From contig CADCIU010000048.1 in assembly GCA_902801585.1 (NCBI GenBank), positions 1 to 31,049 of the forward strand: 31,049 nt of DNA, in the 5' to 3' direction. The notes beneath the pieces were generated by a model that saw only the letters and a list, made by a program, of their open reading frames with translations, had not been told where the DNA came from and did no database searches. A program made the translations under genes and the position numbers. This DNA is from an uncultured Lachnospiraceae bacterium. GTDB taxonomy: Bacteria; Bacillota_A; Clostridia; Lachnospirales; Lachnospiraceae. Positions 1,188 through 20,566 of this stretch are shown here, one piece after another (the stretch's first letter is position 1; every line of letters starts with the position of its first letter).

Positions 1188-1901
1188 TCAATTTTCAAAT
1201 TGAAATTTCATCCTGAATACAGGCTTGCCTTTCTCTCCGCAGATATAGAAGGAATGATCCGATGCAGCGCATCCTACGGACAGAACATCACCGAGCTGAG
1301 CTTCCCCGATATGCTCTGCGATCAGTTCGCGGATCCGGAGACGGCGCAGCTCTTCGGGCATAAGATCGAGTGCCAGGTCGTAGTACCTGGCATTATTCAT
1401 GTGCCCGTTGAGGTCGATGCAGCTGTAGGGAACGGTAAAGGAAGAATTCCGGGTCGTTTCTGCTTTCCTCAGTCTTCCGGGCAGGGCGAGTTCGTTTCCG
1501 GTGACGACCTCTCTGATATAGATGTCATGAGCTTCGGGGAAGACGATCCCGCGGGTCTTCTCATCGATCAGGACCCACAGCGAGGAAGCTTCAATGAGTA
1601 CTTTTCCCTTTGTGTCCACAAGGCGGAAATAGCGGGGAAAATACAGATGCATTGTCTTTCCGGGCCAGGACAGGAGCGAGACCATCTCATCATATTCCGG
1701 AAGACGGTGAAATCTCACATTGTACTGCGTCACCGCCCAGAGAAGTCCCAGATCCAGAGTCTTCTCTCTCGTCACACCCAGTTCGATGGTGTGCGCGATC
1801 GCAGCCTCCTGCAGGCGTGTGAAAAGAGTGGACAGGCGTATTGCACGCGACATGTCCACCTCAGAGGAGAGAAGCCGGAAATCCTGTCTGTAGATGCTCA
1901 T
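1188..1901 (-). CDS. Acyl-ACP thioesterase (double hot-dog, FatA/FatB type)
   Basis: The 237-residue product fits the acyl-ACP thioesterase family, which hydrolyses acyl-ACP to free fatty acid and ACP in the cytoplasm. The first hot-dog domain (residues about 1-140) begins FRLLSSEVDMSRAIRLSTLF and carries WAVTQYNVRFHRLPEYDE. The second (about 150-237) has the typical signature DLNGHMNNARYYDLALD at 163-179, which contains the Asn and His positions used in catalysis in the family. Start ATG at 1901 has AAGGAGA just upstream on the minus strand. It lies downstream of the ACP gene in the same direction (113 bp gap), so a substrate relationship with that ACP is a reasonable inference. Confidence 0.85.
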   Translation of the reverse strand: MSIYRQDFRLLSSEVDMSRAIRLSTLFTRLQEAAIAHTIELGVTREKTLDLGLLWAVTQYNVRFHRLPEYDEMVSLLSWPGKTMHLYFPRYFRLVDTKGKVLIEASSLWVLIDEKTRGIVFPEAHDIYIREVVTGNELALPGRLRKAETTRNSSFTVPYSCIDLNGHMNNARYYDLALDLMPEELRRLRIRELIAEHIGEAQLGDVLSVGCAASDHSFYICGEKGKPVFRMKFQFEN

Positions 1902-3610: not shown

Positions 3611-5191
3611 TCAATACCTAAGTTCCCATCGCTTGATTTTGCCGGTAGCTGTGCGGGGCAGCGGCCTGTCCGTAAACAGGATCGCACTGAGCTGCTGTCC
3701 CCGGGGAAGTCCTGCCATCACATTTCGCAGTTTGCCTTGCAGGTCCGTTTGTGGCGCCTCTTTGGCCGGATTATTCGCCGGCAGTAAAGATATGTCGGGA
3801 TCGACCAGGAGAAGAGCCGGTCTCCCGCTCTGTGTGATAACTGCGAAATCTCTTCCGGGAAGCGCCGCGGCAATGCGGGCTTCGTACTCAGGCAGGAAAA
3901 TCTTGGTGCCGTCCTGAAGAACCAGGATTTCTTTCTTGCGGCCGATGATGTGAAGACGACCGCTGTCGTCCCATCTGCCGAGGTCTCCGGTGTAAAGGAT
4001 ACCGTCTCTGAGAACAGCCGCAGTATCTTCGGGATGTTTGTAGTAGCCCTCCATCATGCAGCTGTCCCCGGCAACAAGGATCTCGCCGTCCTCAGCCAAA
4101 GTGACCGTGTTCTCGGGACAGATCTCCAGGGCATAGGGGTCGAAGGAAGCTGCAGGACCGGAAGAAGGACCGTCGGGCTCATCCGGAGGGCCGTCAGGCT
4201 CATCCGGAGTGCCGGCGGAAGAGGCGCGGTAAGCCGGCGGCACACTGATCGCCACGCCGGAGCTGGTCTCCGTGAGACCGTAGCCGAAGCTGACCGAGAC
4301 TCCTTTATGGGCGGCTGCGGCAAGAAGTGCCTTGGGACAGTCGCCGGCGCCCACCAATACAAGTCGGAGCTCTTCGTTCATAAGGTCGTGCGCAAGCAGG
4401 AAGCCCAGCAGCATTGGAACGGCCGAAAGTGCGGTCGGTCTGTAAAAAGACAGGTCCTGCGTGTAGTATCTGGCGCCGCGCCCGAGAGCAACTGCAGAGC
4501 CGCACTGCATGCCCCACAGAAGTCCGCAGACAAAGCCGAAGACGTGGTTCAGGGGCAGCATGCAGAGAAGAGTGTCTTCCTCTGAGAGCGGCAGTTTGCA
4601 GCTTCCGTTGTAGGCGGCGGCCATCAGGCTCCTGTCCGTCAGGACAACGGCTTTGCTGCTGGAAGTCGTTCCGGAGGTAAAGAAGAGAATGCGGTGACTC
4701 CGGGGGAGGCGTTCGTCTTCGGTGAGTGATGAAGACTGATCTATTCCTTCCGTCAGATACGGCTGCAGCTCTTCGACAAGATCCTCATCACTTCCCCACA
4801 GGCAGTCGATGTCAGTCTGCCGGATCTGCTCGATCAGAAGATCTTCCGCGGCATTTTCGTCCAGGAGGACCGTCTGAAGTCCCGCAAGTGCCGAGGCAAA
4901 AATGGTCAGAACGCACGAGAGCGATCCGTCGCACAGAATACCGAGACAGGACGGCGTTCTGTTGTCTGCATTTACACAAAGCCCCGCTCCTTCAGGCCTG
5001 CCAAGAAGTTCCCCGGCGCGTGCCGCGGCGGCATGGGCAAACTCTGCCCGACTAAGAGAAGCCGGCTTGCCGCTCTTCTCATAGAGAATGGCTGTCCGCG
5101 AAGGATCTGCTTCTGTAAAAGTGCGAAGCAGGTCCTCAAAGCCGGTGTATTTGGTTTGATCCTTCTGTGTTTTGACACGCTGTATAGTCAT
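3611..5191 (-). CDS. AMP-forming acyl ligase (ANL superfamily, acyl-CoA/acyl-ACP synthetase-like)
   Basis: The 526-residue protein shows the adenylate-forming enzyme motifs in order: FFTSGTTSSSK (170-180, ATP loop), FGYGLTETSS (302-311), LYTGDLGRWDDSGRLHIIGR (399-418), and the C-terminal PRTATGKIKR with the expected adenylation lysine Lys518. It should activate a carboxylic acid as acyl-AMP and pass it to CoA or a carrier protein. An ACP gene in the same orientation nearby makes an acyl-ACP ligase attractive. Between motifs A5 and A7 there is a Pro/Asp/Gly-rich insert (328-346) made of a 7-residue duplication. The start at 5191 (MTIQRV) has a GAAGG tract upstream. It is transcribed divergently from the fatty-acid isomerase homologue at 5457. 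Exact chain-length preference cannot be read. Confidence 0.85.
   Translation of the reverse strand: MTIQRVKTQKDQTKYTGFEDLLRTFTEADPSRTAILYEKSGKPASLSRAEFAHAAAARAGELLGRPEGAGLCVNADNRTPSCLGILCDGSLSCVLTIFASALAGLQTVLLDENAAEDLLIEQIRQTDIDCLWGSDEDLVEELQPYLTEGIDQSSSLTEDERLPRSHRILFFTSGTTSSSKAVVLTDRSLMAAAYNGSCKLPLSEEDTLLCMLPLNHVFGFVCGLLWGMQCGSAVALGRGARYYTQDLSFYRPTALSAVPMLLGFLLAHDLMNEELRLVLVGAGDCPKALLAAAAHKGVSVSFGYGLTETSSGVAISVPPAYRASSAGTPDEPDGPPDEPDGPSSGPAASFDPYALEICPENTVTLAEDGEILVAGDSCMMEGYYKHPEDTAAVLRDGILYTGDLGRWDDSGRLHIIGRKKEILVLQDGTKIFLPEYEARIAAALPGRDFAVITQSGRPALLLVDPDISLLPANNPAKEAPQTDLQGKLRNVMAGLPRGQQLSAILFTDRPLPRTATGKIKRWELRY
4170..4211. repeat. Tandem 21-bp duplication inside the acyl ligase gene
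   Basis: Two adjacent 21-bp copies (4170-4190 and 4191-4211) differ at two positions and encode the duplicated heptad around PDEPDGP. The copies fall in a surface-type linker, and the reading frame is kept. Confidence 0.9.
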
Positions 5192-5456
5192 ACCTTCAGC
5201 TTACCTCGCCTTTCATTGTCCTAACGGAAACCTCTCTTTTATCTCGTGCTTTCACATGTCTCTTACTTTCATAAGTATAGCATCGAAAGGTCGGTTTAGG
5301 TTCAATTTCCGAAGGGATAGTTGTATACTGATTACAGATGATTTAGGCAAATTTTGTAGTAGTTCGATGTTTCGGCCTGCTGATCGCAATAGGGACCCGG
5401 AGCGCGAAACAGATACGAAATTGAACGAATAACTTAAACTACCAGGGGAGGTTACC
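5192..5456. promoter_or_regulatory. Divergent promoter region with two inverted copies of a 10-bp motif
   Basis: The interval separates the divergent ligase and isomerase genes. GTTCAATTTC lies at 5300-5309 and its exact complement GAAATTGAAC at 5417-5426. A plus-strand -10 candidate TATACT is at 5324-5329; the 5300 motif occupies its -35 position (17-bp spacer from TTCAAT). A minus-strand extended -10, TGCTATACT, is at 5282-5274. The first motif therefore sits between both promoters and the second just before the isomerase ribosome binding site (AGGGGAGG at 5443-5450). This arrangement is what a shared, possibly fatty-acid-responsive, repressor would need. The regulator is not encoded in view. 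Confidence 0.55.
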
Positions 5457-6851
5457 ATGGACAAGAACATTAAGATCTGTATCATCGGCGGAGGCCCGGC
5501 AGGCCTGTCCGCGGGCATGTATCTGGAGCAGAAAGGGTACGAGAACTACACCATTCTCGAGAAGAACGACCGCGTCGGCGGAAAGTGCTGGTCACCGCAT
5601 TACAACGGACGCCGCTATGAGATGGGCGCCATTATGGGCGTTCCCTCCTACTATGCCGTGCACGACGTCGAGGAGTTCTGCGGCATCACGCACGACGGCC
5701 CGCAGCTCAACCGCAACTACAAGAACAGGATGGGCCAGGTCATCGAGCCCTTTGAGCCCAAGAAGAATCTGACCAAGATCCCCCGCCTTCTCAAGATGAA
5801 GAGACAGCTCAAGAAATTCGGCGAGCTCCTGGAGACCAAGTACAAGGGCTACGACATCAACGGTCACCGCGGCGTCGCGGAGGGACGCTACGAGGGATTC
5901 TCGGCAGCCAGTGCCAAAAGAGAGCCTGTCAGCGGCGTGAACCCCAACCTCAAGGATCTGGCGCTTCCCTTCAAGAAATTCTGTGAGATCAACGGCGTTG
6001 AACTGGTGCAGGACATCTGGATCGGACCTTTCACTTCCTTCGGCTATGGCTATTTTGACGAGATCCCGGCAGCTTACGTTCTGAAGTATCTGGATTTCCA
6101 GACCTGCATGAACTTCGTCAAGATCAACCTCTGGACATGGAAGGAAGGCACGCAGTTTATCTGGGAGTCCCTGAACGGGAAGCTGAAGAACCCGGCCCGT
6201 CTGAACAGCAGGATCGACAAGGTCGAGAGAAAAGACGGCAAGGTCTATGTGACCGTAAACGGCGAAGTGGAAGAATACGATAAGATCATCGTGACTTCCC
6301 CTCTGTATGTGCCGATGAAAGAGAACCGGAGCGACGGGCTGGTCGGCATGGTGGACTATTTTGACGCGCGCGAGGATGAGAAGAAGCTCTTCTGCCAGAT
6401 CGAGTACGAGCGCTACGATGTGCTCGCAGTGGAGACCAAGCCCGAGGACCATCCCGAGATCTCCTATTATGTCTTCGACAACATGATCCCCAAGAGACTG
6501 GGCCATCTGATGGTCTACTATCGCCGCTGGAGAGATACCGTGGATCAGGTCATCACGACCTATGCGCTCAGAAAACACAAGAGAATGGAGGAAGTCCCTT
6601 ACGAGAAGTGCAGAGCGAGAGTACTCAGGGACCTCGAGACCATGGGCAACCCCGCTTCCAACGTCGTCAACGAGTGGAGCGTCTATTACTTCCCGCACGT
6701 ATTCACGAACGCCTACAAGGACGGCTGGTATGACAAGGTCGAGGCCATGCAGGGCAAGTATGACACCTACTATGCAGGTGAGATCATGAGCTTCGGCGAC
6801 ATGGATGAGACTTGCGAGTACTCCCGCGAGCTGGTGGAGAGATTCTTCTGA
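5457..6851 (+). CDS. FAD-dependent fatty acid isomerase, homologue of C. acnes polyunsaturated fatty acid isomerase (PAI)
   Basis: The 464-residue flavoprotein begins with a dinucleotide-binding fold (IIGGGPAGLSAGMYLEQ, 9-25) and the flavin-site segment GGKCWSPHYNGRRYEMGAIMG (41-61). From memory, it resembles the Cutibacterium acnes linoleate isomerase PAI throughout: YKGYDINGH, PAAYVLKYLDF, LWTWKEGTQ, DNMIPKRLGHLMVYY, YYFPHV and the C-terminal YYAGEIMSFG all have near-identical counterparts. PAI converts linoleate to the conjugated trans-10,cis-12 isomer by flavin-mediated hydride transfer. Arg86 aligns with the substrate-recognition Arg88 of PAI as I recall it. A stretch of about 23 extra residues (within 138-166) is absent from C. 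acnes PAI. It is the first gene of an operon with two more redox genes. Regiospecificity, and whether free or carrier-bound acids are used, cannot be read from sequence. Confidence 0.83.
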   Translation: MDKNIKICIIGGGPAGLSAGMYLEQKGYENYTILEKNDRVGGKCWSPHYNGRRYEMGAIMGVPSYYAVHDVEEFCGITHDGPQLNRNYKNRMGQVIEPFEPKKNLTKIPRLLKMKRQLKKFGELLETKYKGYDINGHRGVAEGRYEGFSAASAKREPVSGVNPNLKDLALPFKKFCEINGVELVQDIWIGPFTSFGYGYFDEIPAAYVLKYLDFQTCMNFVKINLWTWKEGTQFIWESLNGKLKNPARLNSRIDKVERKDGKVYVTVNGEVEEYDKIIVTSPLYVPMKENRSDGLVGMVDYFDAREDEKKLFCQIEYERYDVLAVETKPEDHPEISYYVFDNMIPKRLGHLMVYYRRWRDTVDQVITTYALRKHKRMEEVPYEKCRARVLRDLETMGNPASNVVNEWSVYYFPHVFTNAYKDGWYDKVEAMQGKYDTYYAGEIMSFGDMDETCEYSRELVERFF

Positions 6852-6912
6852 TCCCGCCCCAACGGATTCGTTTCAGGTCCTTACACTGTAAATGACTTCA
6901 CAGGAGACAACC

Positions 6913-8448
6913 ATGAAATTTTACAAAGATCATTATGACGTGATCGTGATCGGAGGGGCCCTGGCGGGCCTCTCCTCAGCGCTTATGCTGGCGGACAAGG
7001 GGCTGGATGTGCTGGTCCTTGAGCGCCACAACCTGCCCGGCGGCATTGCCACGAGCTTTGTGCGCGGGGGCATTGAGATCGAAGCGGCGCTGCACGAGAT
7101 GATGTCTATAGGCCCCGGCGACAATCGCCTCAAAGTGGGCAAGTTTTTCGATGACATGGGCCTCGATATAGAGTGGCTTCAGGTTCCGGAGTGCTACCAC
7201 GCGAGTCTCCCCGGCCTGGAAGTGACGCTTCACCCGGGTCTGGAGCGCTTCTCCCGCGAGATCGACGAGCAGGTACCGGGCACTTATGACAAAGTACTCA
7301 GGCTCTTGAAGCTCTGCGATACCGTTTTCAACAGCGTCAACGAGCTGTCCATCCACCCGATGAGCAAACCGCAGATGCTCCTTAAGCATGAGGCTTTCGT
7401 CAAGACAGCGGGCTATTCCACCAAGGAAGTACTCGATACCTTTGACCTCCCTCAAAAGGCATTGGATCTGCTGGCTCCCTACTGGATCTACGTGGGAAGC
7501 GGCTTTTCAGATCTGCCTTTTACGATCTATTCCGTGCTGATGGCGGACTATGTGGGCTACGGTTCCATGATCCCCAAAAAGTTAAGTCATGAGATGAGTC
7601 TGAAGATGGCGGAGCGCGCCGAGGAGATGGGCGTGCAGATCGAGTACCGCCAGCATGTGGACAAGATCCTGGTGAAGAACGGCAGGGCTTACGGCGTGCG
7701 CACAGCGCGCGGCGACGAGATCCACGCGGACTACGTGATCTCTTCCGCTTACCCCAACGCGGTCTACACACACATGATCGAGCCCCTCAGCGAAGTGCCC
7801 GCAGGTGCCACTAAGATGGTCAACGGGCGGCGTCTTTCGCTGACTGCGTTCTCGGTGATCCTGATCCTGGACAAGCCGGCGGAAGAACTGAATATTAAGG
7901 ACTACAGTATTTTCCGCGGCGACACGATGGACACGGACCTTCTGTATGAAAACCTGGCGGGCCTTGGCCCTTACAGATACCTGACCTGCATCTGCCACAA
8001 CTACGGCAATCCCGGTGTGACACCGGAGGGCACCTGCTCCTTCAGCGTGACGGTGCTGCCCCGTGTGGACGGGTGGAAGACGGTTAAGGCGGAGGATTAT
8101 GACCGGGTCAAACACGAAGTGGCAAAGCAGCTGATCGACGACATGTCTGAGTATTTCGGCGTGAACCTCCTCGACCATGTGCTGGAGTGTGTCATAGAGA
8201 CGCCGATGACCATCGCGCACTACACAGGCGCGTGGAACGGCTGCATATACGGCTATGCGCACACTATGGAGGACCACATCGTCGCGAGGCTGCAGACTGC
8301 AGAGGAAGAGAAGTTCATCGACAGATTGGAGTTCGCGGGCGCCCACGCCATCTCCGGAGACGGCATGGGACCGGCGGTGACCAACGGACGGAAAGCTGCC
8401 AAGAACGTGTTGGATGACATTGCAGCGAGAAAGGAGGCAGCGCGATGA
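6913..8448 (+). CDS. CrtI/retinol-saturase-type FAD-dependent oxidoreductase, candidate conjugated fatty acid reductase
   Basis: This 511-residue flavoprotein belongs to the phytoene desaturase / retinol saturase / carotenoid isomerase superfamily. It has an N-terminal FAD fold (VIVIGGALAGLSSALML, then LERHNLPGG) and the C-terminal flavin motif GDGMGPAVTNGRKAAKNV. The usual GxGxxG reads GGALAG, with Ala16 replacing the second glycine. ATG 6913 is preferred to the ATG at 6892 because AGGAG (6902-6906) sits 6 nt upstream. Members of this family add or remove hydrogen at conjugated polyene bonds; retinol saturase reduces one conjugated double bond. Lying between a conjugating fatty-acid isomerase (61 bp upstream) and an electron-transfer reductase (4-bp overlap downstream), its best inferred role is reduction of the conjugated diene. 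Carotenoid or other polyene substrates remain possible. Confidence 0.78.
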   Translation: MKFYKDHYDVIVIGGALAGLSSALMLADKGLDVLVLERHNLPGGIATSFVRGGIEIEAALHEMMSIGPGDNRLKVGKFFDDMGLDIEWLQVPECYHASLPGLEVTLHPGLERFSREIDEQVPGTYDKVLRLLKLCDTVFNSVNELSIHPMSKPQMLLKHEAFVKTAGYSTKEVLDTFDLPQKALDLLAPYWIYVGSGFSDLPFTIYSVLMADYVGYGSMIPKKLSHEMSLKMAERAEEMGVQIEYRQHVDKILVKNGRAYGVRTARGDEIHADYVISSAYPNAVYTHMIEPLSEVPAGATKMVNGRRLSLTAFSVILILDKPAEELNIKDYSIFRGDTMDTDLLYENLAGLGPYRYLTCICHNYGNPGVTPEGTCSFSVTVLPRVDGWKTVKAEDYDRVKHEVAKQLIDDMSEYFGVNLLDHVLECVIETPMTIAHYTGAWNGCIYGYAHTMEDHIVARLQTAEEEKFIDRLEFAGAHAISGDGMGPAVTNGRKAAKNVLDDIAARKEAAR

Positions 8449-9635
8449 AAGTTAAGAATTTCCTGGCTGATGTCGGCGGAGCTTCCCGTGTCACGAAAGC
8501 GCGCCTGAACGCGTTCGCCTCTGCATCCCCTGCGCTTGCGGACGTGGATCCGATCGGCGATGTTTCACGCGAGTGGCATCCCGGTCCGATCGAACTTGTC
8601 GTCACAAAGATCACGCCTGCCTGCAAGACAGCCAAGACCATCCGTTTCGAGCGGACAGACGGCAAAAAACTGCCCTTCTTCTATGCGGGGCAGTACATTG
8701 TACTGGATTTCAAGATCGGTGAGAGCCTGATCTCCAGACCGTATTCCATTTCTTCCGCGCCCTATCAAGCGAGAGCGGAAAAGCCATTCGTGGAGATCAC
8801 GGTCAGAAAGTCCAAGGGCGACGGTTTTATCTGTGATTATGTCAATGATGAACTGAAGGTCGGCGATATTTTGACAGGGAACATGGGGCTGGGACAGTTC
8901 TACTACGAGCCGCTCCGCGATGCGAAGCATGTAGTGGCGCTGGCCGGCGGCGTAGGTATTACGCCCTTCGCTTCCATGGCCAAAGAAGTGGCAAACGGGA
9001 CGCTGGATATCGACCTGACGATCCTTTACGGATCAGCTTCCTCGGACGATATCGTCTTGAAGGAGGAACTGGACGCGCTGGAAGGGGCGTGCGGCAATCT
9101 GCACATCGTGCATGTGCTCAGCGGCGACGAGCCCGGCTGGACCGGCGAAAAGGGGTTCCTGACGGCAGAACTTATTAAGAAGTATTCTGCGGCGGACACC
9201 ACGTACTTTATCTGCGGGCCGCAGGTTATGTACACTTTCCTTCGGAAAGAAGTGGCAAAGCTGGACGTTCCGGCAAGGCGCGTGCGCTTCGAGGTCTTCG
9301 GCCAGGCCAAAGACATTGCCATGTACGAGGGATTCCCGACGGAGCTCAGACATGAGACCTTCACGATCACCGTGGTGCGCGGCATCAGTGAGGTGGAGAT
9401 TCCCGCCAAGGCGACGGAGAGCATTGTCGTTGCGCTCGAGCGCGCCGGGATCCGGATCGAGACCGGGTGCCGCAGCGGCGAGTGCGGATTCTGCAGGACC
9501 AAAGTCCTGTCCGGAAACTATTTCGTCTGCCCGGAGGGAGACGGAAGAAGAGCGGCAGATAAGGATTTCGATTACGTTCATGCATGCGCGGCGTATCCGC
9601 TGTCGGACATGAAGGTGAAGATACCGATTTTGTAG
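8445..9635 (+). CDS. FAD/NAD(P)H oxidoreductase with C-terminal [2Fe-2S] ferredoxin domain
   Basis: The 396-residue protein has a ferredoxin-reductase FAD domain with RPYSIS (98-103), a nucleotide domain with GGVGITP (168-174) and ICGPQVM (257-263), and a plant-type ferredoxin domain ligating [2Fe-2S] through Cys342, Cys347, Cys350 and Cys381. The domain order matches electron-supplying reductases such as Hcr or the phenol hydroxylase reductases, which move electrons from NAD(P)H via FAD and [2Fe-2S] to a partner enzyme. Residues 1-45 form an extra N-terminal region not needed for the reductase fold. The start ATG overlaps the preceding stop (ATGA at 8445-8448), implying translational coupling, so the flavoprotein encoded just upstream is the natural electron acceptor. 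A repeat element follows 5 bp after its stop. Confidence 0.9.
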   Translation: MKVKNFLADVGGASRVTKARLNAFASASPALADVDPIGDVSREWHPGPIELVVTKITPACKTAKTIRFERTDGKKLPFFYAGQYIVLDFKIGESLISRPYSISSAPYQARAEKPFVEITVRKSKGDGFICDYVNDELKVGDILTGNMGLGQFYYEPLRDAKHVVALAGGVGITPFASMAKEVANGTLDIDLTILYGSASSDDIVLKEELDALEGACGNLHIVHVLSGDEPGWTGEKGFLTAELIKKYSAADTTYFICGPQVMYTFLRKEVAKLDVPARRVRFEVFGQAKDIAMYEGFPTELRHETFTITVVRGISEVEIPAKATESIVVALERAGIRIETGCRSGECGFCRTKVLSGNYFVCPEGDGRRAADKDFDYVHACAAYPLSDMKVKIPIL

Positions 9636-9640
9636 AATAA

Positions 9641-9696
9641 GGGAGACAGGGGACGGTTCTCTGTCTCCCGCAAAAGTTGTCAGAAGAACCGTCCCC
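9641..9696. repeat. Composite palindromic repeat of the GGGACGGTTCT family
   Basis: GGGAGACAG (9641-9649) and CTGTCTCCC (9661-9669) form a hairpin around the core GGGACGGTTCT (9650-9660). A second inverted core, AGAACCGTCCCC, lies at 9685-9696 in the context AAAAGTTGTCAGAAGAACCG, the same sequence as the right arm of the 542-594 element. The first half is the exact reverse complement of the element at 16538-16566. Confidence 0.9.
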
Positions 9697-9744
9697 TTGA
9701 CACCCTTTTTTTGCCCAAAGCTTCCGCCTGACCGCAATATTTAG

Positions 9745-9772
9745 TGGACTCTCCAATAGTGCGCAGTATAAT
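9745..9772 (+). promoter_or_regulatory. Candidate promoter for the short secreted-peptide ORF
   Basis: TGGACT (9745-9750) and a consensus TATAAT (9767-9772) are separated by 16 bp. The promoter would start transcription about 90 bp before the ribosome binding site at 9862. The -35 matches only four of six consensus bases. Confidence 0.4.
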
Positions 9773-9871
9773 TAACATTGCGTTATAGTTTTGCAATAAT
9801 ATTTTACATCAACGCCATATGTTCTCTTGTATGACGGAAAAGAAATAGACAACATTTGGACGGGAGAAGAT

Positions 9872-10041
9872 ATGAAAAAAAGAAGTGGGGGCTTATTTTG
9901 TCCGCTCTGATCGGGAGCATTGCAGCATGTCTGCTCATGTCTCCGGTCAAAGCGGCATCCTCCACGATGAAGATCGCGGCGATCCGGTACATCAATGACT
10001 GGTCTGCAGCTATTATGTTTGTGGGATCTTCGAAACAGTAG
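9872..10041 (+). pseudogene. Short secreted-peptide gene, start and body in different frames at an A7 run
   Basis: ATG 9872 has a good GGGAG Shine-Dalgarno 5 nt upstream, but its own frame stops after 12 codons (TGA 9908-9910). The overlapping frame encodes a clear signal peptide: KKKWGLILSALIGSIAACLL followed by MSPVKA-AS, then about 28 residues to TAG at 10039-10041. One extra A in the run of seven at 9875-9881 would join them as MKKKKWGLIL onward, a textbook secretion signal. Without it, the only in-frame start is TTG 9856, which lacks a ribosome binding site. A strong terminator follows at once, so this looks like a real monocistronic unit. Explanations are polymerase slippage or phase variation at the A run, a recent inactivation, or a base-calling error. 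I recognise no family for the mature peptide. Confidence 0.5.
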
Positions 10042-10043
10042 AC

Positions 10044-10094
10044 AGAGAGCGCTGCTCTTGCTGAATCATCGGCAAGGGCAGCGCTCTCTTTTTG
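10044..10094 (+). terminator. Strong rho-independent terminator
   Basis: An 18-bp stem (10044-10061 with 10072-10089, one G-U pair) closes a 10-nt loop and runs into TTTTTT. It begins 2 bp after the stop of the short secreted-peptide ORF. Confidence 0.92.
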
Positions 10095-10106
10095 TGCGAT
10101 AAGCTT

Positions 10107-10157
10107 CGAGCCCGAGGCTCGGGAGCACAGAACAATCCCCGAGCCCGAGGCTCGGGG
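10107..10157. repeat. Two copies of a 17-bp palindrome CGAGCCCGAGGCTCGGG
   Basis: Identical copies lie at 10107-10123 and 10140-10156, 33 bp apart. Each can fold by itself, and the second extends to CCCCGAGC / GCTCGGGG (10137-10144 with 10150-10157). A T-rich stretch (10170-10190) follows, so the second copy could also terminate transcription. Confidence 0.85.
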
Positions 10158-10271
10158 CTCTACATTTAAGGTTTATTTTATTTTTTTTATCCAAAATAGA
10201 ACCGGCACGCAATCTGCGTCGTCTGTATAGACGTAAAGGAAATCCACTTAAGTAAAAAACGGAGGAAAGTG

Positions 10272-11114
10272 ATGAAAAAGACAACGGCAAAAAACATCTT
10301 GGCAAAGACAACAGCAGCCGCAGTGGTGATCGCATTGATCGCAGGGGCAGATGCGTGGCTTATGAATGATCGAATGACTGCACTGCATGCCAGTGCGGCA
10401 GCGACAGAGGCAGCCAGTGAGGAAGAGCCAGCCGCTGCGGCAGCGGCAGAGGCAGCCGGTGAGGAAGAGCCATTGCCTGCCGATAAGAATGAGCTCATGA
10501 AAAAGGCCGCATCAGACCTTGCTGCAAAATACGGAACATATCTGGAAAGCGCTTCACAGATTGCTAAAGAGATGCGGGAAGAAGCACTCAAAGCGGTCAA
10601 AGAAGAGGACGCTTCATTGGCACAGGAATGGCTGGACACACTCGTGGAACAATTTGATGAGAACGATATTCAGGGCTCTGCAGCTTCCTGCTTCACGGAA
10701 GAAACTTCAGAGGAAGAGATGCTTGCAGCATTGCAGCTGCTGTCAGCGGTTTACCAGGGAGAGATCAGCACAGAGATCCTGTCCTTTGACAAAGACGGAT
10801 TTGTGGCAAGGCTGACGGGCGATAACGCCAGCGGTGTGTTCCCCTTTACTTTCCGTGATGGAACAGCTGTTTTGTCCGGAAGCTTGTTTACCTCTATGGT
10901 CTGCGGGTCCTGCGGCGGCACCGGACAGATTCCGTCTTATACGACCTGCGCGACCTGCGGCGGCACCGGCCAGCAATATTTTGACAACGTATACTATGAC
11001 CTGGTCATGGGATGGCAGGGAATGTGGCAGGCCTGCAGCGGCTGCGGCGGAGCAGGTCAATTTGTATACTACAATATCTGCCCCGAATGCGGCGGCGCGG
11101 GTGTGCACCAGTAA
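10272..11114 (+). CDS. Exported or membrane-anchored protein with four DnaJ-type CxxCxGxG motifs
   Basis: The 280-residue product starts with a basic N terminus and one hydrophobic segment (about 13-32, AAAVVIALIAGADAWLM) that could be a signal anchor. An Ala/Glu-rich low-complexity linker with a 42-bp duplication follows (27 of its bases nearly identical at 10404-10430 and 10446-10472), then a helical middle region. The C-terminal 65 residues hold four motifs, CGSCGGTG, CATCGGTG, CSGCGGAG and CPECGGAG. This is the number found in the zinc-binding cysteine-rich domain of DnaJ, where two zinc ions are held by motifs 1+4 and 2+3. No J domain is present. ATG 10272 has GGAGG 6 nt upstream. Topology suggests an extracytoplasmic zinc domain, which is unusual. 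Function is unknown. Confidence 0.75.
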   Translation: MKKTTAKNILAKTTAAAVVIALIAGADAWLMNDRMTALHASAAATEAASEEEPAAAAAAEAAGEEEPLPADKNELMKKAASDLAAKYGTYLESASQIAKEMREEALKAVKEEDASLAQEWLDTLVEQFDENDIQGSAASCFTEETSEEEMLAALQLLSAVYQGEISTEILSFDKDGFVARLTGDNASGVFPFTFRDGTAVLSGSLFTSMVCGSCGGTGQIPSYTTCATCGGTGQQYFDNVYYDLVMGWQGMWQACSGCGGAGQFVYYNICPECGGAGVHQ

Positions 11115-11137
11115 ACAGAGAGGGCGGGTGAGAGACC

Positions 11138-11368
11138 GTGGGCTTCGAGACAAGGAATCAGCGGGCAGTGCACAGAGGACGAGCGAAGCTGTCCGGGAAA
11201 CTGTCCGGGAAATGCGAGAATGATCCCATTGAGAGAGATCCTATAGAGAGAAATTCTATAGAAAGAGAAATTCAGAGAGAACTGATTCTGCTCTCTGTCA
11301 AAAAGGAGCTCCGGGAAGCCGGAATCATTGAAAAAACAGACAATGAAATATCGGATGAAAAGGATTGA
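11138..11368 (+). CDS. Small charged ORF, SHOCT-like C terminus (tentative)
   Basis: A GTG-initiated 76-codon frame lies 23 bp after the preceding gene. It contains a 12-bp tandem repeat (11189-11212, LSGKLSGK) and a degenerate 15-bp repeat in four copies (11222-11281; DPIER, DPIER, NSIER, EIQRE). The C-terminal 30 residues (LLSVKKELREAGIIEKTD) resemble short SHOCT-type helical tails that occur in many Firmicute proteins. There is no strong ribosome binding site, and the frame may be a degenerated gene. Its stop overlaps the TTG that could start the next ORF, which hints at coupling. Confidence 0.42.
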   Translation: MGFETRNQRAVHRGRAKLSGKLSGKCENDPIERDPIERNSIEREIQRELILLSVKKELREAGIIEKTDNEISDEKD

Positions 11369-11391
11369 ACGGAAAGGAAAACGTAACAGAT

Positions 11392-11691
11392 ATGTTCAGG
11401 ACAATCGGCAGAGTGTTCTATGTTATAGCGGTGATATTAATCCTATTGTTTTTTCTGGTTTTTAGTACAGATGAGACAGCAGCAAGGGAATATATGGCAC
11501 TGGCGGTGCTCTCGCTGCTGACAGGGGTCTTTTGCCTGCTGTTGGAAGATATTCACCTTCGATTTTCAAGAGGCGGGGGAAACCTTAGGAAAAACAATAG
11601 CACGGCAATTTGTCCGCACTGCGGGAAATTTATCAATCGGCATGATAACTGCTGCAAACATTGCGGGTTGAAGATCAATACCGGCGCGTGA
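11392..11691 (+). CDS. Two-helix membrane protein with C-terminal zinc ribbon
   Basis: From ATG 11392 the product (99 residues) has two transmembrane helices, RVFYVIAVILILLFFLVF and ALAVLSLLTGVFCLLLE, then a cytoplasmic-type zinc ribbon with CPHC and CKHC pairs about 15 residues apart (CPHCGKF...CCKHCG). An alternative TTG at 11365 overlaps the previous stop (TTGA) and would add 9 residues; neither start has an ideal ribosome binding site. Zinc-ribbon membrane proteins of this build are common in Clostridia without known function. It sits in a run of same-strand accessory genes. Confidence 0.62.
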   Translation: MFRTIGRVFYVIAVILILLFFLVFSTDETAAREYMALAVLSLLTGVFCLLLEDIHLRFSRGGGNLRKNNSTAICPHCGKFINRHDNCCKHCGLKINTGA

Positions 11692-11745
11692 AACAGCAAT
11701 AGAACAGTATAGAGAAGGAAAACGCAAAAAAGGAGATAAGGAAAG

Positions 11746-12471
11746 ATGTTTTCAAGATTTCAAGAGGCTAATTTGGGCTTATTTCTTAAAGAAATCGGTC
11801 AAGACAAAGCAAGGGAACTCGTCGAGCTTTCGCAGGATTATATGGATGCATTGGTAAGCGGAGATCAGGATGGAATCCTGGACAACTATGACACTATTCT
11901 GTCGAAAATCGAGGAAGCTACAATAGAGACAGGAATTCGTATTATGATCTCTTATAGTGAGAATGAGAGTTACTTTGTGGCGGTAACTGCCTTTTGCGCG
12001 AGAATTACGAAAGCGCTGATGGATGCAGCGGAATTCAAGATTGAAGAGACAAGACCGAAATTTGGGCAGAAGGTATTCAGTACAGTGACAGAAGCCGACC
12101 GATGGCTCTCGGAGAATTCGCTTATTGAGGTCACTGAGATGAAAGTTCCGACAAGAACTGCTTTCGGAATACTGGGGAGCCATTCGGTAGCAGAGAGTAT
12201 CACGCTGGAATACATAGAGCATAATCAGCCTACCGGATACCAATATGGAATGGTCGAATTTGAAAAAGCGAAATACATAACAAAAGCAGATCCCTCGCAA
12301 TACATCAGGGAGTGGAAAAACAGAAACAACGTGGAAGTAGTCCTCTGGAGATCAAGCTCTGTTGTGACAAGGCAGCACGGCATACACTTTTTTGACGCAG
12401 GGCTGGACCGCGCTGAGCATGTCAAATTGTTCGTTGTTTACAGAAATAATGTGGAAGTGCTGCAGAAGTAA
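11746..12471 (+). CDS. Uncharacterised 241-residue protein
   Basis: I do not recognise a family. AGGAG at 11731-11735 precedes ATG 11746 by about 10 nt. There is no signal peptide or membrane segment. The N-terminal half is helical and acidic (KARELVELSQDYMDALVSG), and the C-terminal half looks strand-rich (ITLEYIEHNQPTGYQYGMVEFEKAKYIT; VEVVLWRSSSVV; HVKLFVVYRNNVEV). It lies between a zinc-ribbon membrane protein and the sigma-factor fusion on the same strand with gaps of about 54 bp, so it may share their transcription unit. Low GC and many ATA/AAA codons mark it as part of the accessory block. Confidence 0.75.
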   Translation: MFSRFQEANLGLFLKEIGQDKARELVELSQDYMDALVSGDQDGILDNYDTILSKIEEATIETGIRIMISYSENESYFVAVTAFCARITKALMDAAEFKIEETRPKFGQKVFSTVTEADRWLSENSLIEVTEMKVPTRTAFGILGSHSVAESITLEYIEHNQPTGYQYGMVEFEKAKYITKADPSQYIREWKNRNNVEVVLWRSSSVVTRQHGIHFFDAGLDRAEHVKLFVVYRNNVEVLQK

Positions 12472-12524
12472 ATTCTGTAGGTACTGTATCCGTTAAATGA
12501 GTATTCAGAAAAGAGGGAGCAGGA

Positions 12525-14228
12525 GTGAAAAACAAGCTGACAAATCAGGAGTGGGCAGAACTTGTGCAGAGAGCACAGAACGGAGAAGAAGAGGCTTTTG
12601 AAGAACTGTATCGTTCATCTTACGATTACTTGTATGCAGTATGCTTTAAGGGGAGTGTTCCGGAAGAGGATATACCGGATGTGCTGCAGGAATCCTATAT
12701 CAAAATATTTAAGAATCTGGACACACTGGATCAGCCGGAGAAATTTCTCGCCTGGGCAGCCGTTGTCGTCAAGAACACAGGGCGTGACAAAGGGCGTCAA
12801 AGAAAGACCTATTATGAGCGGAATGAGCTGATGGAAGATACTTCCAGTGAAGAGAACATGGGGATCGATGCGCTTGCTGTCGATGAGATGGATCCGGACT
12901 ACAATCCGGGTGCAGCACTCGACAAAGCTGCCACAGTTCGAATCGTGAGAGATATGATCGCGGAGCTCCCGGAAACGCAGAGAGATTGTATCGTTCTCTG
13001 GTGTGAAGGAAAAAGCATGAGTGATATCTCCGAAGAAGTCGGGATACCGGTCGGATCAGTAAAGAGCAGCATCAGCTACGCGAAACAGAAGATCAAGAAA
13101 ATGACTCTGAAGATTGAACAGGAGCAGGGCATTCGCCTGCACACCGTCGCACCTATGTCGTTCTTTATCTGGGCGATCGGCAATATTGAGGAGCTGCTGG
13201 ATGTGGCTGTTCCCTCATTTTCTGCAATCTACGATATTTTGGCCCTATCGGGACAGGTCGTATCGGGGAACGCAATGAAACTGGCGGAAGGTCTGGCCTC
13301 TGATACATCGGCAGCACAAACCGCGGGTCAGACGGCTGTGGAGGTCGGGAAGAAAGGGGCAGAACAAGCGGTGTCTGCCGCCGGGAAGAAGGCCACAGAA
13401 CATGCGGCGCTTACGGCGGGAGAAAAGGCAGCTGCCGGCTTCCTGACAACGATGGGCGGCAAAGCGGCTGTGACGGCTATGGTCCTGATTATCGGCGGAG
13501 CCGGAGTTTATTATGCATCGGGAGCCGGCAGGCAGAAACCGCAGGAAGCGCCGACTGCCGTGACGCAGGAAGAAACGACCGAAGAAAACGAACCGGTCCA
13601 GAGTGCAGAGACAGAGACGGAATCGGCTGCGGCAGCGCCCACTGCGGAAGTACCGAGTGAAGAAATTCAGGAAGAAGAGGACCTGCTGGCACAGATCCCG
13701 GAGTTAGATCAAGCGGTAGCGGATATGGTGCCGGCTATGACTTGCTATATAGATACAAAAGAAGGTATCGGGAGTATTCCGGAGCCGGAAGAATTCTCGG
13801 TGAATAATACCGAGCTTTTCTGGAAATTTGCGCATTCCTATTGTATCAGATTTCCCGAACACCTAAGTGAAGATAACTATTCGGGAGCGGTGAGGGTAAG
13901 CGAAATGGAGGAAGTGGCCAGAACCGCGTTTGCAGACTGCACCGGGCTGCCGGATACACTGGATGAGTATGCTAATTCATATATTGGATATGGCATATAC
14001 GGAGAATGGCTTGAAATGCCGCTCGGGAACGCATTGTTCCGTTATGAGATGGCCGGGTGGGAGACCACGGAAGACGGAAAAGGGATCGACGTCACGCTCG
14101 ATGAGATCAATGTCGGAGCAGAAATGTACAATACGTCCTATGTGGTTCATCTGGTGCCCGTCGAGGAGGCGGTCAAGGGTGATGCCAGATTGAAGTTCTT
14201 TATCACCGGAGCGGAAGAGGTGGAGTAA
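12525..14228 (+). CDS. ECF-like sigma factor fused to a transmembrane segment and extracytoplasmic domain
   Basis: The 567-residue protein begins with sigma-70 region 2 (residues 10-95; AFEELYRSSYDYLY, IPDVLQESYIKIFKNLD) and region 4 (140-195; LPETQRDCIVLWCEGKSMSDISEEVGIPVGSVKSSISYAKQKI). It continues with an Ala/Lys-rich linker with heptad-like GxKxAExA repeats (about 255-305), a transmembrane helix (313-331, AAVTAMVLIIGGAGVYY), an acidic Pro/Glu/Thr stalk (340-390), and a folded outer domain of about 180 residues. The GTG at 12525 is supported by GAGGGAG 6 nt upstream. Sigma activity with an outer sensing domain on one chain would bypass a separate anti-sigma factor, perhaps being released by proteolysis. 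That mechanism is inference. The Sel1 lipoprotein gene follows after 68 bp and could be a target or partner. Confidence 0.85.
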   Translation: MKNKLTNQEWAELVQRAQNGEEEAFEELYRSSYDYLYAVCFKGSVPEEDIPDVLQESYIKIFKNLDTLDQPEKFLAWAAVVVKNTGRDKGRQRKTYYERNELMEDTSSEENMGIDALAVDEMDPDYNPGAALDKAATVRIVRDMIAELPETQRDCIVLWCEGKSMSDISEEVGIPVGSVKSSISYAKQKIKKMTLKIEQEQGIRLHTVAPMSFFIWAIGNIEELLDVAVPSFSAIYDILALSGQVVSGNAMKLAEGLASDTSAAQTAGQTAVEVGKKGAEQAVSAAGKKATEHAALTAGEKAAAGFLTTMGGKAAVTAMVLIIGGAGVYYASGAGRQKPQEAPTAVTQEETTEENEPVQSAETETESAAAAPTAEVPSEEIQEEEDLLAQIPELDQAVADMVPAMTCYIDTKEGIGSIPEPEEFSVNNTELFWKFAHSYCIRFPEHLSEDNYSGAVRVSEMEEVARTAFADCTGLPDTLDEYANSYIGYGIYGEWLEMPLGNALFRYEMAGWETTEDGKGIDVTLDEINVGAEMYNTSYVVHLVPVEEAVKGDARLKFFITGAEEVE

Positions 14229-14296
14229 TGCTCTGAAGGAATCATTGCTGTTGGATTAATAATGACAGGGTAAAGTGACAGGAAAAGAGGGACATA

Positions 14297-16522: not shown

Positions 16523-16534
16523 CCATCAGAAGAA

Positions 16535-16569
16535 AAAGGGAGACAGAGAACCGTCCCCTGTCTCCCTTT
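16535..16569. repeat. Palindromic repeat, reverse-complement copy of the 9641 element
   Basis: AAAGGGAGACAG (16535-16546) and CTGTCTCCCTTT (16558-16569) flank the core AGAACCGTCCC (16547-16557). The 29 bp from 16538 to 16566 are the exact reverse complement of 9641-9669. The element lies between convergent genes and has T-rich ends on both strands, so it may double as a bidirectional terminator. Confidence 0.9.
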
Positions 16570-16576
16570 CATGGCT

Positions 16577-17545: not shown

Positions 17546-17586
17546 AATTCAGTTCTCCTTTAAAGCTTAATAGTATCTATGACCAA

Positions 17587-17627
17587 CTCATGGGAGAAGA
17601 CGCGCACGGCGCGTCTTCTCCCATGAG
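17587..17627. terminator. Perfect 19-bp inverted repeat between two minus-strand genes
   Basis: The arms at 17587-17605 and 17609-17627 (CTCATGGGAGAAGACGCGC and complement) are identical with a 3-nt loop ACG. The repeat starts 29 bp after the stop of the upstream minus-strand flavoenzyme gene. No T tract follows on either strand, so it is a weak candidate for an intrinsic terminator and may instead stabilise the 3' end of the mRNA. Confidence 0.55.
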
Positions 17628-17656
17628 AATGGTTTCGCTTAACGGGCTTAACGCAC

Positions 17657-20566
17657 TTAATTCGTCTGCTCCGTCGGGTAATCCGACTTGCCTGTGACTT
17701 TTCTCTTGATGATCTTAAAGCCCCTTTGAAGCGCATACGGGCCGACGCATTTCATCATTTCTTCCGCAGTGTGCATGTCCGCCGCGTGCGGAATGTCGCG
17801 GGAGAGGTGGATCGCATCGAATTCGCAGCGCGTAGTACACAGGCCGCAGCCGATACACTGGTTGAGATCGACGACCGTGGCGCCGCACTTCAGGCACCGG
17901 TTTGCTTCCGCCTTCACCTGCTCTTCGGTGAAGGGCAGGCGGGGATCACGGAACGTCTCAGAGGACGCAGCGGATCTCAGTCCCGGCGTCTGCCGGCTTG
18001 CGTTGTCGTAGGACTCGATGCGCACGTCGCTGCGGTCCAGCTCAATGAACTCGCGCAGGTCGCGCCCGATCGTCAGCGACTGGCCGGGATGGACGAAACG
18101 GTTGATCGAGACCATGCCCTCTTTGCCGTCTGCTATGGCGTCGATCGCGAAGCGCGCTCCGTGGAAAATATCGCCGCCCACGAAGATATCCGGCTCGCCG
18201 GTCTGGCAGGTGATGGGATTTGCGATCGCCGTTCCGTTTCCGCGCAGCTGTACGTTTGTGCCATCCAGCAGGCCTCCCCACTCGGCGGACTGCCCGATCG
18301 CCATCAGAACATGGCTGCAGGGAATCGTGATCGTCTCGTTCTCATCGTATACAGGAGCGAATTGATGCTTTTTGTCGAAGACGGAGACACACTTCTTGAA
18401 GACGATCGCAGTGACGCGGCCGTTTTCGGCGACAATCTCTTTGGGACCCCAGCCGTTCATGATCGAGATGCCTTCTTCTTCCACTTCCGCCACTTCGTCT
18501 TTGGCAGCAGGCATTTCCTCTTTGGACTCCAGGCAGAGCATACTGACTTTTCCATCCGTGACGCGCAGAGCAGTGCGGGCCACGTCAGCGGCCACATTTC
18601 CGCCGCCGACCACGACCACGTCGCCGTGGAGCATAACACCGCTGCCGCCGTCAGAGTTCTGACTGCCATTCTCAAGATTAATACTCTCAAGATTAATATT
18701 TCGCAGGAAACGGATACCGGACTCGACACCCTCAGCGTCCTCGCCGGGAATGCCGGCGAGACGGCCGCCCTGCAGGCCGATCGCAACATAGAATGCCTTG
18801 AAGCCGCGCGCGCGAAGTTCATCGAGCGTGACGTCTTTGCCGACTTCCACGCCGCACTCTATTTTGACACCCATCCGCCTGATGATCTCGATCTCTGCCT
18901 CCACGATGTCTTTCTCCAGGCGGAAGGAGGGAATGCCGTTCATCAGCATACCGCCGGGGCGCGCTTCACGCTCGAAAACAGTGACGGGATATCCTTCCGC
19001 GCGCAGATAGTAAGCAGCACTCAGGCCCGCGGGGCCGGAGCCGATGACAGCGATGGGGTAGTCATCCCACTGCTTTCCTTCGCCGTTCTCACAGATGGGA
19101 AGATAGGCCGCAAGCGCATCGGAAACGCCCTGCGCCGGATCAGAGGCCTCCGCCGCCCTGACCATTTCCAGTTCACGGAGCGCCAGGAATTTCTTGATCT
19201 CGTCGATCGCTACAGGAGCGTCGACCAGTCCGCGGGTACAGCGGTCTTCACAGCGGCGGTTGCAGATGGCACCGCATACAGCTGGGAAGGGGTTGTCCTG
19301 GCGGATGAGCCTGAGGGCATCCTCATAGCGGCCTTCCGCAGCCATCCGGATGTAGCCCTGCACGGCGAGATGTGCCGGACATGCCGCCTTACAAGGCGAG
19401 GTGCCGGTGTCATAGCAGTTGATCTTGTTGTGGTCCCGATAGTCCGGATCCCACTTGTCAGGTCCCCAGATGTGGTCATCGGGGAGCTCATGCATGGGAT
19501 ATTTGACCTTGCTGCCATCGGAGCGGCAAAGTTTCTGGCCCAGTTTCGCGGCACCGGCAGGACATACCTCCACGCACTTACCGCAGGCGACGCACTTGGC
19601 CGGGTCCACGTGTGCGCGATAAGCGCTGCGGGACATATTGGGCGTGTTGAAGAGCTGGGACGTGCGCAGGCCGTAGCAGCTGCCCGGGGAGCAGTTGCAG
19701 ATGCCGACGATCCGGTTCGGACCGTCCAGATTGGTGATCTGATGGACATAGCCCTTGCGCTCGGCGCGCTCTAGGATCTCCATGACTTCCTCTTTGGATA
19801 CATATTTGGCATCTTTGCCGCTCGTGACGAGGAACTCGGCGATATCGCCGACGCCGATGCACATATGTCCCTCAATGTCGCCGACGCCCTCTCCGCGGAT
19901 GCGCTGTGCCTTGCGGCAGGCGCAGACCATGGTGCAGAAGGTGTCATATTTGTCGAGCCAGTGGGAGAGATGTTCCACACTGACGGAAGTCGAAGAGGTA
20001 TCAATGGCCTTTTCTACGGGGATGACGTGCATGCCGATCCCGGCGCCTCCGGGAGGAACGAGCTTCGCGGCCAGTTCCAGAGGTTCCTGAGGAGCCAGAT
20101 TGAACATGGTGGCAACTTCAGGATACTTGTCGGGCAGCGTCTTGTGCTCGACCATATACTCGCCGGACCCCACGACCCATTTGGGCACCAGATACTGAAT
20201 GTGGTGGTCCTCATTGTCGCGGTTCTGTTCCAAAATACCGATCCACAGAAGGCGGTCGATGATCTTCTGCGCTTTTTTCTCACTGATGCGGTTGCGCGCA
20301 GCCAGCTCCGCGGTGGTGAGACCTACACGGCGCTTCTTGAAACTGAGAAGGAACACGATCTCACGCTTAGTCAGAAGGCGGTCCAGGATCCAGAAATCCA
20401 TGTGGTTTTCGTGCATGCCGCCGGGGAGTTTGCGCGGGATGTTGTCGGTGATCATCCGGGCCAGCTTCATGACCAGCTTTTTCTTGACGGGATCATCACA
20501 GTGATGATCTTTGAGGGGATAGTCTCGTTCGTTGACATGTATTCGGGGGTGAACTTCTTTGGGCAT
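17657..20566 (-). CDS. Large iron-sulfur flavoenzyme: ferredoxin domains fused to a GltD/NfnB-like NAD(P)H oxidoreductase
   Basis: The 969-residue protein has several parts. Residues about 60-125 look like a winged helix (TTAELAARNRISEKKAQKIIDRLLWIGIL). Residues 205-300 hold extra cysteines (CTMVCAC, CNCSPGSC). A [4Fe-4S] motif CVACGKCVEVCP lies at 325-336. The GltD-type cysteine region spans 392-443 (CKAAC, CGAICNRRCEDRC). The FAD site is VIGSGPAGLSAAYYL (507-521), the NAD(P) site is VVVGGGNVAADVART (651-665), the FAD motif IFVGGDIFHG follows, and a second ferredoxin motif CIGCGLCTTRCE sits near the C terminus. The core resembles glutamate synthase small subunit and NfnB, which pass electrons between NADPH and ferredoxin. 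The electron partner is not nearby, so the reaction is unknown. A 15-bp tandem duplication (around 18671-18700) encodes INLES/INLEN. GGGAGG precedes the start. Confidence 0.85.
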   Translation of the reverse strand: MPKEVHPRIHVNERDYPLKDHHCDDPVKKKLVMKLARMITDNIPRKLPGGMHENHMDFWILDRLLTKREIVFLLSFKKRRVGLTTAELAARNRISEKKAQKIIDRLLWIGILEQNRDNEDHHIQYLVPKWVVGSGEYMVEHKTLPDKYPEVATMFNLAPQEPLELAAKLVPPGGAGIGMHVIPVEKAIDTSSTSVSVEHLSHWLDKYDTFCTMVCACRKAQRIRGEGVGDIEGHMCIGVGDIAEFLVTSGKDAKYVSKEEVMEILERAERKGYVHQITNLDGPNRIVGICNCSPGSCYGLRTSQLFNTPNMSRSAYRAHVDPAKCVACGKCVEVCPAGAAKLGQKLCRSDGSKVKYPMHELPDDHIWGPDKWDPDYRDHNKINCYDTGTSPCKAACPAHLAVQGYIRMAAEGRYEDALRLIRQDNPFPAVCGAICNRRCEDRCTRGLVDAPVAIDEIKKFLALRELEMVRAAEASDPAQGVSDALAAYLPICENGEGKQWDDYPIAVIGSGPAGLSAAYYLRAEGYPVTVFEREARPGGMLMNGIPSFRLEKDIVEAEIEIIRRMGVKIECGVEVGKDVTLDELRARGFKAFYVAIGLQGGRLAGIPGEDAEGVESGIRFLRNINLESINLENGSQNSDGGSGVMLHGDVVVVGGGNVAADVARTALRVTDGKVSMLCLESKEEMPAAKDEVAEVEEEGISIMNGWGPKEIVAENGRVTAIVFKKCVSVFDKKHQFAPVYDENETITIPCSHVLMAIGQSAEWGGLLDGTNVQLRGNGTAIANPITCQTGEPDIFVGGDIFHGARFAIDAIADGKEGMVSINRFVHPGQSLTIGRDLREFIELDRSDVRIESYDNASRQTPGLRSAASSETFRDPRLPFTEEQVKAEANRCLKCGATVVDLNQCIGCGLCTTRCEFDAIHLSRDIPHAADMHTAEEMMKCVGPYALQRGFKIIKRKVTGKSDYPTEQTN

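Follow-up and report, generated by a model that had tools for sequence, protein, structure and literature searches.

Biohydrogenation in the rumen influences which trans and saturated fats end up in milk and meat, and its genes are poorly known. One of the closest described systems is that of Butyrivibrio fibrisolvens, for which excerpts of two papers record a linoleate isomerase and a conjugated linoleate (CLA) reductase (Kepler; Hughes 1982; Fukuda 2007; via PMC2654759 and PMC4478896). Conjugated 18:2 is reduced in this organism in an NADH-linked reaction by a membrane-associated enzyme, just a portion of which has been purified (excerpt of PMC4478896), and the CLA reductase, a separate enzyme, acts on several conjugated acids (excerpt of PMC2654759). 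As described in these excerpts, the system isomerizes and then reduces at the expense of NADH, as we propose for the cassette described here, but it follows the trans-11 route. An excerpt of PMC6249431 reports that no linoleate isomerase gene is found in B. fibrisolvens INBov1 or other Butyrivibrio, and according to an excerpt of PMC4478896 the reductase is in no family database, so that genomes could not be searched for a CLA reductase. The CLA-HY/DH/DC/ER system of Lactiplantibacillus plantarum, as outlined in excerpts, likewise saturates linoleate with several enzymes, but it proceeds via hydroxy and oxo acids, and no genes for a hydratase, dehydrogenase, decarboxylase or enone reductase of the L. 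plantarum type were present among the 15 proteins (11 from the stretch of DNA analysed here) that were scanned with Pfam. The third relevant enzyme, the fatty acid isomerase PAI of C. acnes, is given in excerpted sources as converting linoleate to trans-10,cis-12 CLA. With regard to organisms, the excerpts state that bacteria forming trans-10 intermediates have not been unambiguously identified (PMC7339423), that no rumen strain forming trans-10,cis-12 CLA could be had before the C. acnes isolate of that study (PMC11770317), and that PAI-type genes occur in seven rumen MAGs, of which two belong to Lachnospiraceae, one to Oscillospiraceae and four are unclassified (PMC10019597).

We have analysed a stretch of 31,049 nucleotides from an uncultured Lachnospiraceae bacterium, referred to below as the window, in which a PAI-like gene is followed by genes for a flavoprotein (SAT) and a reductase (RED). 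The relevant features are as follows.

1188..1901, minus strand: acyl-ACP thioesterase, cassette accessory (Pfam)
3611..5191, minus strand: AMP-binding acyl ligase, divergent from the PAI gene, cassette accessory (Pfam)
5192..5456, unstranded: intergenic region from which the ligase and PAI genes diverge, likely holding two promoters (TATAAT-like words)
5457..6851, plus strand: PAI-like fatty acid double-bond isomerase, 464 aa (open reading frame and family homology)
6892..8448, plus strand: SAT, CrtI/CRTISO-type flavoprotein, candidate saturase of a conjugated acid, 518 aa
8445..8448, plus strand: ATGA overlap of 4 bases, SAT stop and RED start
8445..9635, plus strand: RED, reductase of 396 aa of the FAD-NAD(P)H-[2Fe-2S] type, candidate electron donor to SAT
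17657..20566, minus strand: probable accessory protein of 969 aa, a GltD-like Fe-S flavoprotein encoded some 8 kb away from RED

The three core reading frames are intact and lie at the coordinates of the initial annotation, and the last two share the ATGA overlap described there. We found no report of an operon of PAI, SAT and RED in openly licensed PMC papers, though it may have been published elsewhere. As a kind, the biohydrogenation chemistry is old; the gene set, the two-component saturase and the horizontal spread look new. Within the stretch of about 8 kb that separates RED from the GltD-like gene (9636-17656) lie genes for a protein with a sigma-70 region (12525-14228) and for a long, presumably Sel1-like, repeat protein (14297-16522). 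At two other loci (L002 and L008) GltD lies within about 1.1 kb of RED, and the stretch in the window looks like an insertion between the two genes.

The PAI gene product is homologous over its full length to the C. acnes fatty acid isomerase structure 2b9w (E 1.7e-133), with 219 of 416 aligned residues (52.6%) identical; it had been called a close homologue, and while the homology is clear the closeness is only moderate. R88, F168 and F193, reportedly important substrate-site residues of the C. acnes enzyme, correspond to R86, F195 and F220 in the window protein, and these letters are kept in 91, 91 and 90, respectively, of 91 PAI rows (some of them repeats of one locus), the single exception being a gap. 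The two proteins therefore have the family and these three residues in common, and the window gene differs in standing in an operon with SAT and RED.

SAT is an Amino_oxidase-type flavoprotein (PF01593, above cut-off) with a CrtI-like fold, for which the closest solved structure is a desaturase, 4rep. Its two best NCBIfam matches, to the carotenoid isomerase TIGR02730 (101.6 bits against a cut-off of 586.9) and to crtI_fam TIGR02734 (97.2 bits against 238.1), both lie far below the curated cut-offs, so that the designation of SAT as a CrtI-type flavoprotein holds for flavoprotein family and fold but not for membership of the curated CrtI/CRTISO models. Animal retinol saturase (RetSat) is a member of the CrtI/CrtD/CRTISO family. 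The label 'retinol-saturase-type' given to SAT expresses resemblance only, and the fact that RetSat was not among the 50 matches listed in the fold search is evidence neither for nor against it. SAT is 17% identical to the CrtI/CrtD/CRTISO family and, unlike its members, is coupled to a gene for a [2Fe-2S] reductase. The structure alignment of SAT comprised 52 rows, with L009, L010, L080 and L094 excluded because the extracted frame had a stop or was too long.

RED contains FAD_binding_6, NAD_binding_1 and Fer2 domains, all above the Pfam cut-offs, and its cluster cysteines C342, C347, C350 and C381 are invariant in 20 of 20 sequences, bearing out its identification as an FAD-NAD(P)H-[2Fe-2S] reductase. 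It has the three domains and the C-terminal plant-type cluster motif in common with PaaE-, Hcr- and BenC-type reductases, but it scores below the cut-offs of those models, carries about 50 residues ahead of its FAD domain and, judging from its linkage, has a flavoprotein as its partner instead of an oxygenase or a hybrid cluster protein. The linkage was examined in a scan for SAT alone across one genome each of 84,980 species, which returned 193 relatives, the best 80 of which are designated L001-L080. RED directly follows SAT in all of these best 80; the two genes overlap by 4 bases at 64 loci, and at 79 the distance between them falls between -4 and +1 bases. At the remaining locus (L080) the frame extracted for SAT was too long for this distance to be read.

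Within the same best 80 of 193 relatives, a PAI gene was directly upstream of SAT (same strand, less than 800 bases away) in 76. Contigs end within about 100 bases of SAT at two of the four exceptions (L024 and L034), and the other two (L064 and L075) truly lack PAI at that position. Since these loci were picked with patterns taken from the window's own SAT, they are biased towards its close kin. A second, less biased sample consisted of 397 genomes from the family of L001's genome, scored at thresholds of at least 50% identity for SAT and E of 1e-40 or less for PAI, with at most three SAT and four PAI candidates per genome. SAT was present in nine of these genomes, PAI in 14 and both in eight, a co-occurrence far above chance (Fisher p 1.9e-12), and the two genes were adjacent in all eight, even though SAT is just 51-60% identical in five. 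The ninth genome with SAT (G091) has no PAI and two SAT copies, one accompanied by RED (L098) and one, 55% identical (L097:9529-14375), that has HypA and a GltD-like gene for neighbours and lacks RED. Six of the 14 PAI genomes have no SAT at 50% identity or more; in one (L123) PAI is cut by the contig end, and in G250 a distant SAT-RED pair is present on another contig. It is in part against these counts that we weighed the idea that the genes encode unrelated flavoproteins that are neighbours by chance: accessory genes do vary in place and orientation, but the order of the core genes persists from family to family and into a second phylum despite hosts that are distant by RecA (see below), and with the co-occurrence statistics contradicting it as well, this idea can be dismissed.

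The pairing of SAT with RED extends beyond the association with PAI. Among SAT relatives at 27-34% identity, RED adjoins SAT in eight of eight loci (L094-L096 and L104-L108, from seven genomes), none of these eight loci has a PAI match, and the neighbours of the pairs are varied. A more distant relative (L109), the one inspected among the family-sample SAT matches below about 27% identity, has no RED. The retention of RED and absence of PAI at 27-34% identity indicate that SAT and RED are the older pair, to which PAI was added. In a SAT tree of 47 chosen rows, built with a quick model and carrying a long-branch warning, such that the order among L095-L096 and L104-L109 is not interpreted, all 35 PAI-linked rows fall inside one set of 39 rows (support 99), and the PAI-link label requires four changes, a number as low as which was reached in none of 500 shuffles. 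The simplest history is that PAI was attached once to a SAT-RED pair already in existence and was later lost a few times. The expectation that SAT and RED are linked to PAI in related genomes is thus borne out for the SAT subfamily (76 of 80 loci; eight of nine genomes) but fails for the relatives at 27-34% identity. The proposal that RED supplies electrons to SAT in particular has good support, because RED stays with SAT where PAI is absent and the pairing thus reaches further than the association with PAI. The existence of pairs without PAI also warns against tying SAT-RED in itself to conjugated linoleate; stand-alone SAT-RED pairs probably represent a wider class of two-component reductases.

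The core is usually accompanied by further genes, so that the three-gene operon initially described is right in its conserved order and too small in its extent. In the best 80 of the 193 relatives an AMP-binding ligase was found in 62 loci, in 59 of them divergent beside PAI; at 14 of the 18 loci without it the contig ends within about 330 bases, and the ligase is thus present in most loci with room for one. The same 80 loci include 57 with a thioesterase on the ligase's strand, counted with no distance limit, and at 51 a gene for a GltD-like Fe-S flavoprotein is at most 1.5 kb away from RED. A search for a fatty-acid operator in 58 intergenic stretches between ligase and PAI yielded mainly TATAAT-like words and no operator, a result that counts against the cassette reading proposed below. 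Three of the five family-sample genomes that have an uncut PAI and no SAT at 50% identity or more (loci L117, L119 and L121; PAI 50-53% identical) show a GltD-like match within some 1.2 kb of PAI and no SAT in the stretch retrieved, and GltD may be part of the PAI chemistry itself.

The distribution of the cassette does not follow that of its hosts. RecA was used as a yardstick in 17 chosen genomes, 16 of which were compared with the genome of L071 as reference. Nine hosts, among them a Sphaerochaetaceae MAG (L077) and hence a spirochaete, have RecA proteins only 63.8-69.1% identical to the reference, with identities of 78.3-87.5% for SAT, 83.8-87.4% for PAI and 67.3-77.6% for RED, whereas four hosts with closer RecA (74.2-81.8%) have SAT only 51.7-59.2% identical; in the remaining three, RecA is 82.7-96.9% and SAT 83.9-95.7% identical. 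SAT and PAI identities far above those of RecA in nine hosts argue for horizontal spread. Some of this discordance, but hardly all of it, could arise from MAG contigs assigned to the wrong bin. A branched-chain aminotransferase-like gene (26390-27424) was tried as a yardstick and dropped in favour of RecA, as its matches, found in ten of 13 genomes and only 34-41% identical in seven, were possibly paralogous. The occurrence of SAT is patchy: it was found in 18 of 61 genomes from the genus to which L001's genome belongs, in 17 of them at 59% identity or more, in four of 300 from the family of L014's genome (three at 85% or more) and in one of eight from the genus of a Pseudobutyrivibrio MAG, being absent (E of 0.001 or less) from the other seven. 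In this MAG (L064:6373-15450), SAT, RED and GltD, without PAI, are flanked by a pair of similar, co-oriented transposase genes of the IS66/IS240 type, an arrangement that resembles a composite transposon. No SAT or PAI match was found in the plasmid database PLSDB at 1e-30. The record titles name a ruminant gut for 29 of the 80 loci; 29 more bear a RUG label, which we take to denote rumen genomes, and for 22 the host is unreadable.

We conclude, with a probability of about 0.7, that the locus is a laterally spread fatty-acid biohydrogenation cassette, for which isomerization followed by saturation is the best reading of the chemistry. The sequences themselves show the gene families, the coupling of SAT to RED, the conserved linkage to PAI and the discordance with RecA; the substrate, the order of the steps, the saturation and the products are what we infer. 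Free linoleate or alpha-linolenate would enter the cell, and the PAI-like flavoenzyme, judged by its homology, would form a conjugated diene by moving one of the double bonds. RED, its FAD reduced by NAD(P)H, would hand electrons through its [2Fe-2S] cluster on to FAD in SAT. With two hydrogens then added by SAT, the conjugated system would be left with an isolated double bond, probably in the trans configuration. The cell may benefit from removal of toxic polyunsaturated acids and from an electron sink. More speculatively, the thioesterase and ligase might provide PAI with free acids and later reactivate the products, and the GltD-like protein might balance NAD(P)H. The scheme fits the NADH-linked reduction of conjugated 18:2 recorded for B. 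fibrisolvens in the excerpts cited above. Thus, of the original proposal of a whole isomerize-then-saturate route with its own electron supply, the linkage and the pairing of RED with SAT are borne out by the genomes, and the substrate and the saturation keep the standing of a prediction.

Four other readings bear on this conclusion, the last of which, chance proximity, was dealt with above. The first is a variant of the cassette reading rather than its competitor, namely that the regiospecificity of PAI has changed so that trans-11 products are formed, as in Butyrivibrio. An identity of only 52.6% to C. acnes PAI leaves room for such a change, and excerpted sources give trans-11 as the usual major rumen route, but the characterized relative makes, according to the excerpts, trans-10,cis-12 CLA, and we regard the variant as possible, if on the unlikely side. 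According to a second reading, SAT-RED or PAI acts on another unsaturated lipid, such as an isoprenoid, a hydroxy acid or a plant polyene, and not on C18 polyunsaturated acids. The distance of PAI from the characterized enzyme would permit this, as would the older SAT-RED pairs with their varied neighbours and no PAI. We nevertheless consider it improbable, given that the three important PAI residues are kept in all 91 rows, one gap aside, that an AMP-binding ligase and an acyl-ACP thioesterase accompany the cassette and that many of the records come from ruminant guts, in which C18 polyunsaturated acids are abundant.

A third reading, to which we also assign a low probability, takes SAT to be a redox-primed second isomerase, in which RED would keep the FAD reduced and the diene would be rearranged with no net hydrogenation. 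Plant CRTISO is a redox-primed isomerase, and the best NCBIfam match of SAT is to the carotenoid isomerase TIGR02730; more generally, it counts against saturation that the curated models closest to SAT describe an isomerase and desaturases and that its fold, among solved structures, is most like that of a desaturase. However, the match to TIGR02730 is far under the cut-off, and a reductase at every one of the best 80 of 193 loci would suit stoichiometric rather than catalytic use of electrons. A dedicated NAD(P)H reductase points instead to a reductive reaction of SAT, as the biohydrogenation cassette would require.

Pseudobutyrivibrio is said in an excerpt to form trans-11 intermediates, and the absence of SAT from seven of the eight genomes of this genus implies that SAT is not the sole reductase of its kind; its patchy occurrence there speaks against SAT as a general CLA reductase. 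A bolder reading, which we put forward tentatively and hold to be somewhat less than an even bet, is that a mobile cassette in uncultured Lachnospiraceae, Oscillospiraceae and at least one spirochaete does much of the trans-10 branch of rumen biohydrogenation, from linoleate through trans-10,cis-12 CLA to trans-10 18:1. If true, it would identify both the genes and the bacteria responsible for milk fat depression caused by diet, and it would establish two-component, NAD(P)H-driven flavoprotein saturases of conjugated fatty acids as a new class; as the remaining double bond may lie at trans-10 or at trans-11, we keep this link apart from our base claim. The wider SAT-RED pair may likewise represent a class of anaerobic saturases. 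The cassette supplies genes, hosts and a marker, in that the PAI-SAT junction can be counted in metagenomes and the genes can be tested in E. coli, and it is therefore a concrete gene candidate for the rumen conversion of polyunsaturated plant fat to more saturated fat.
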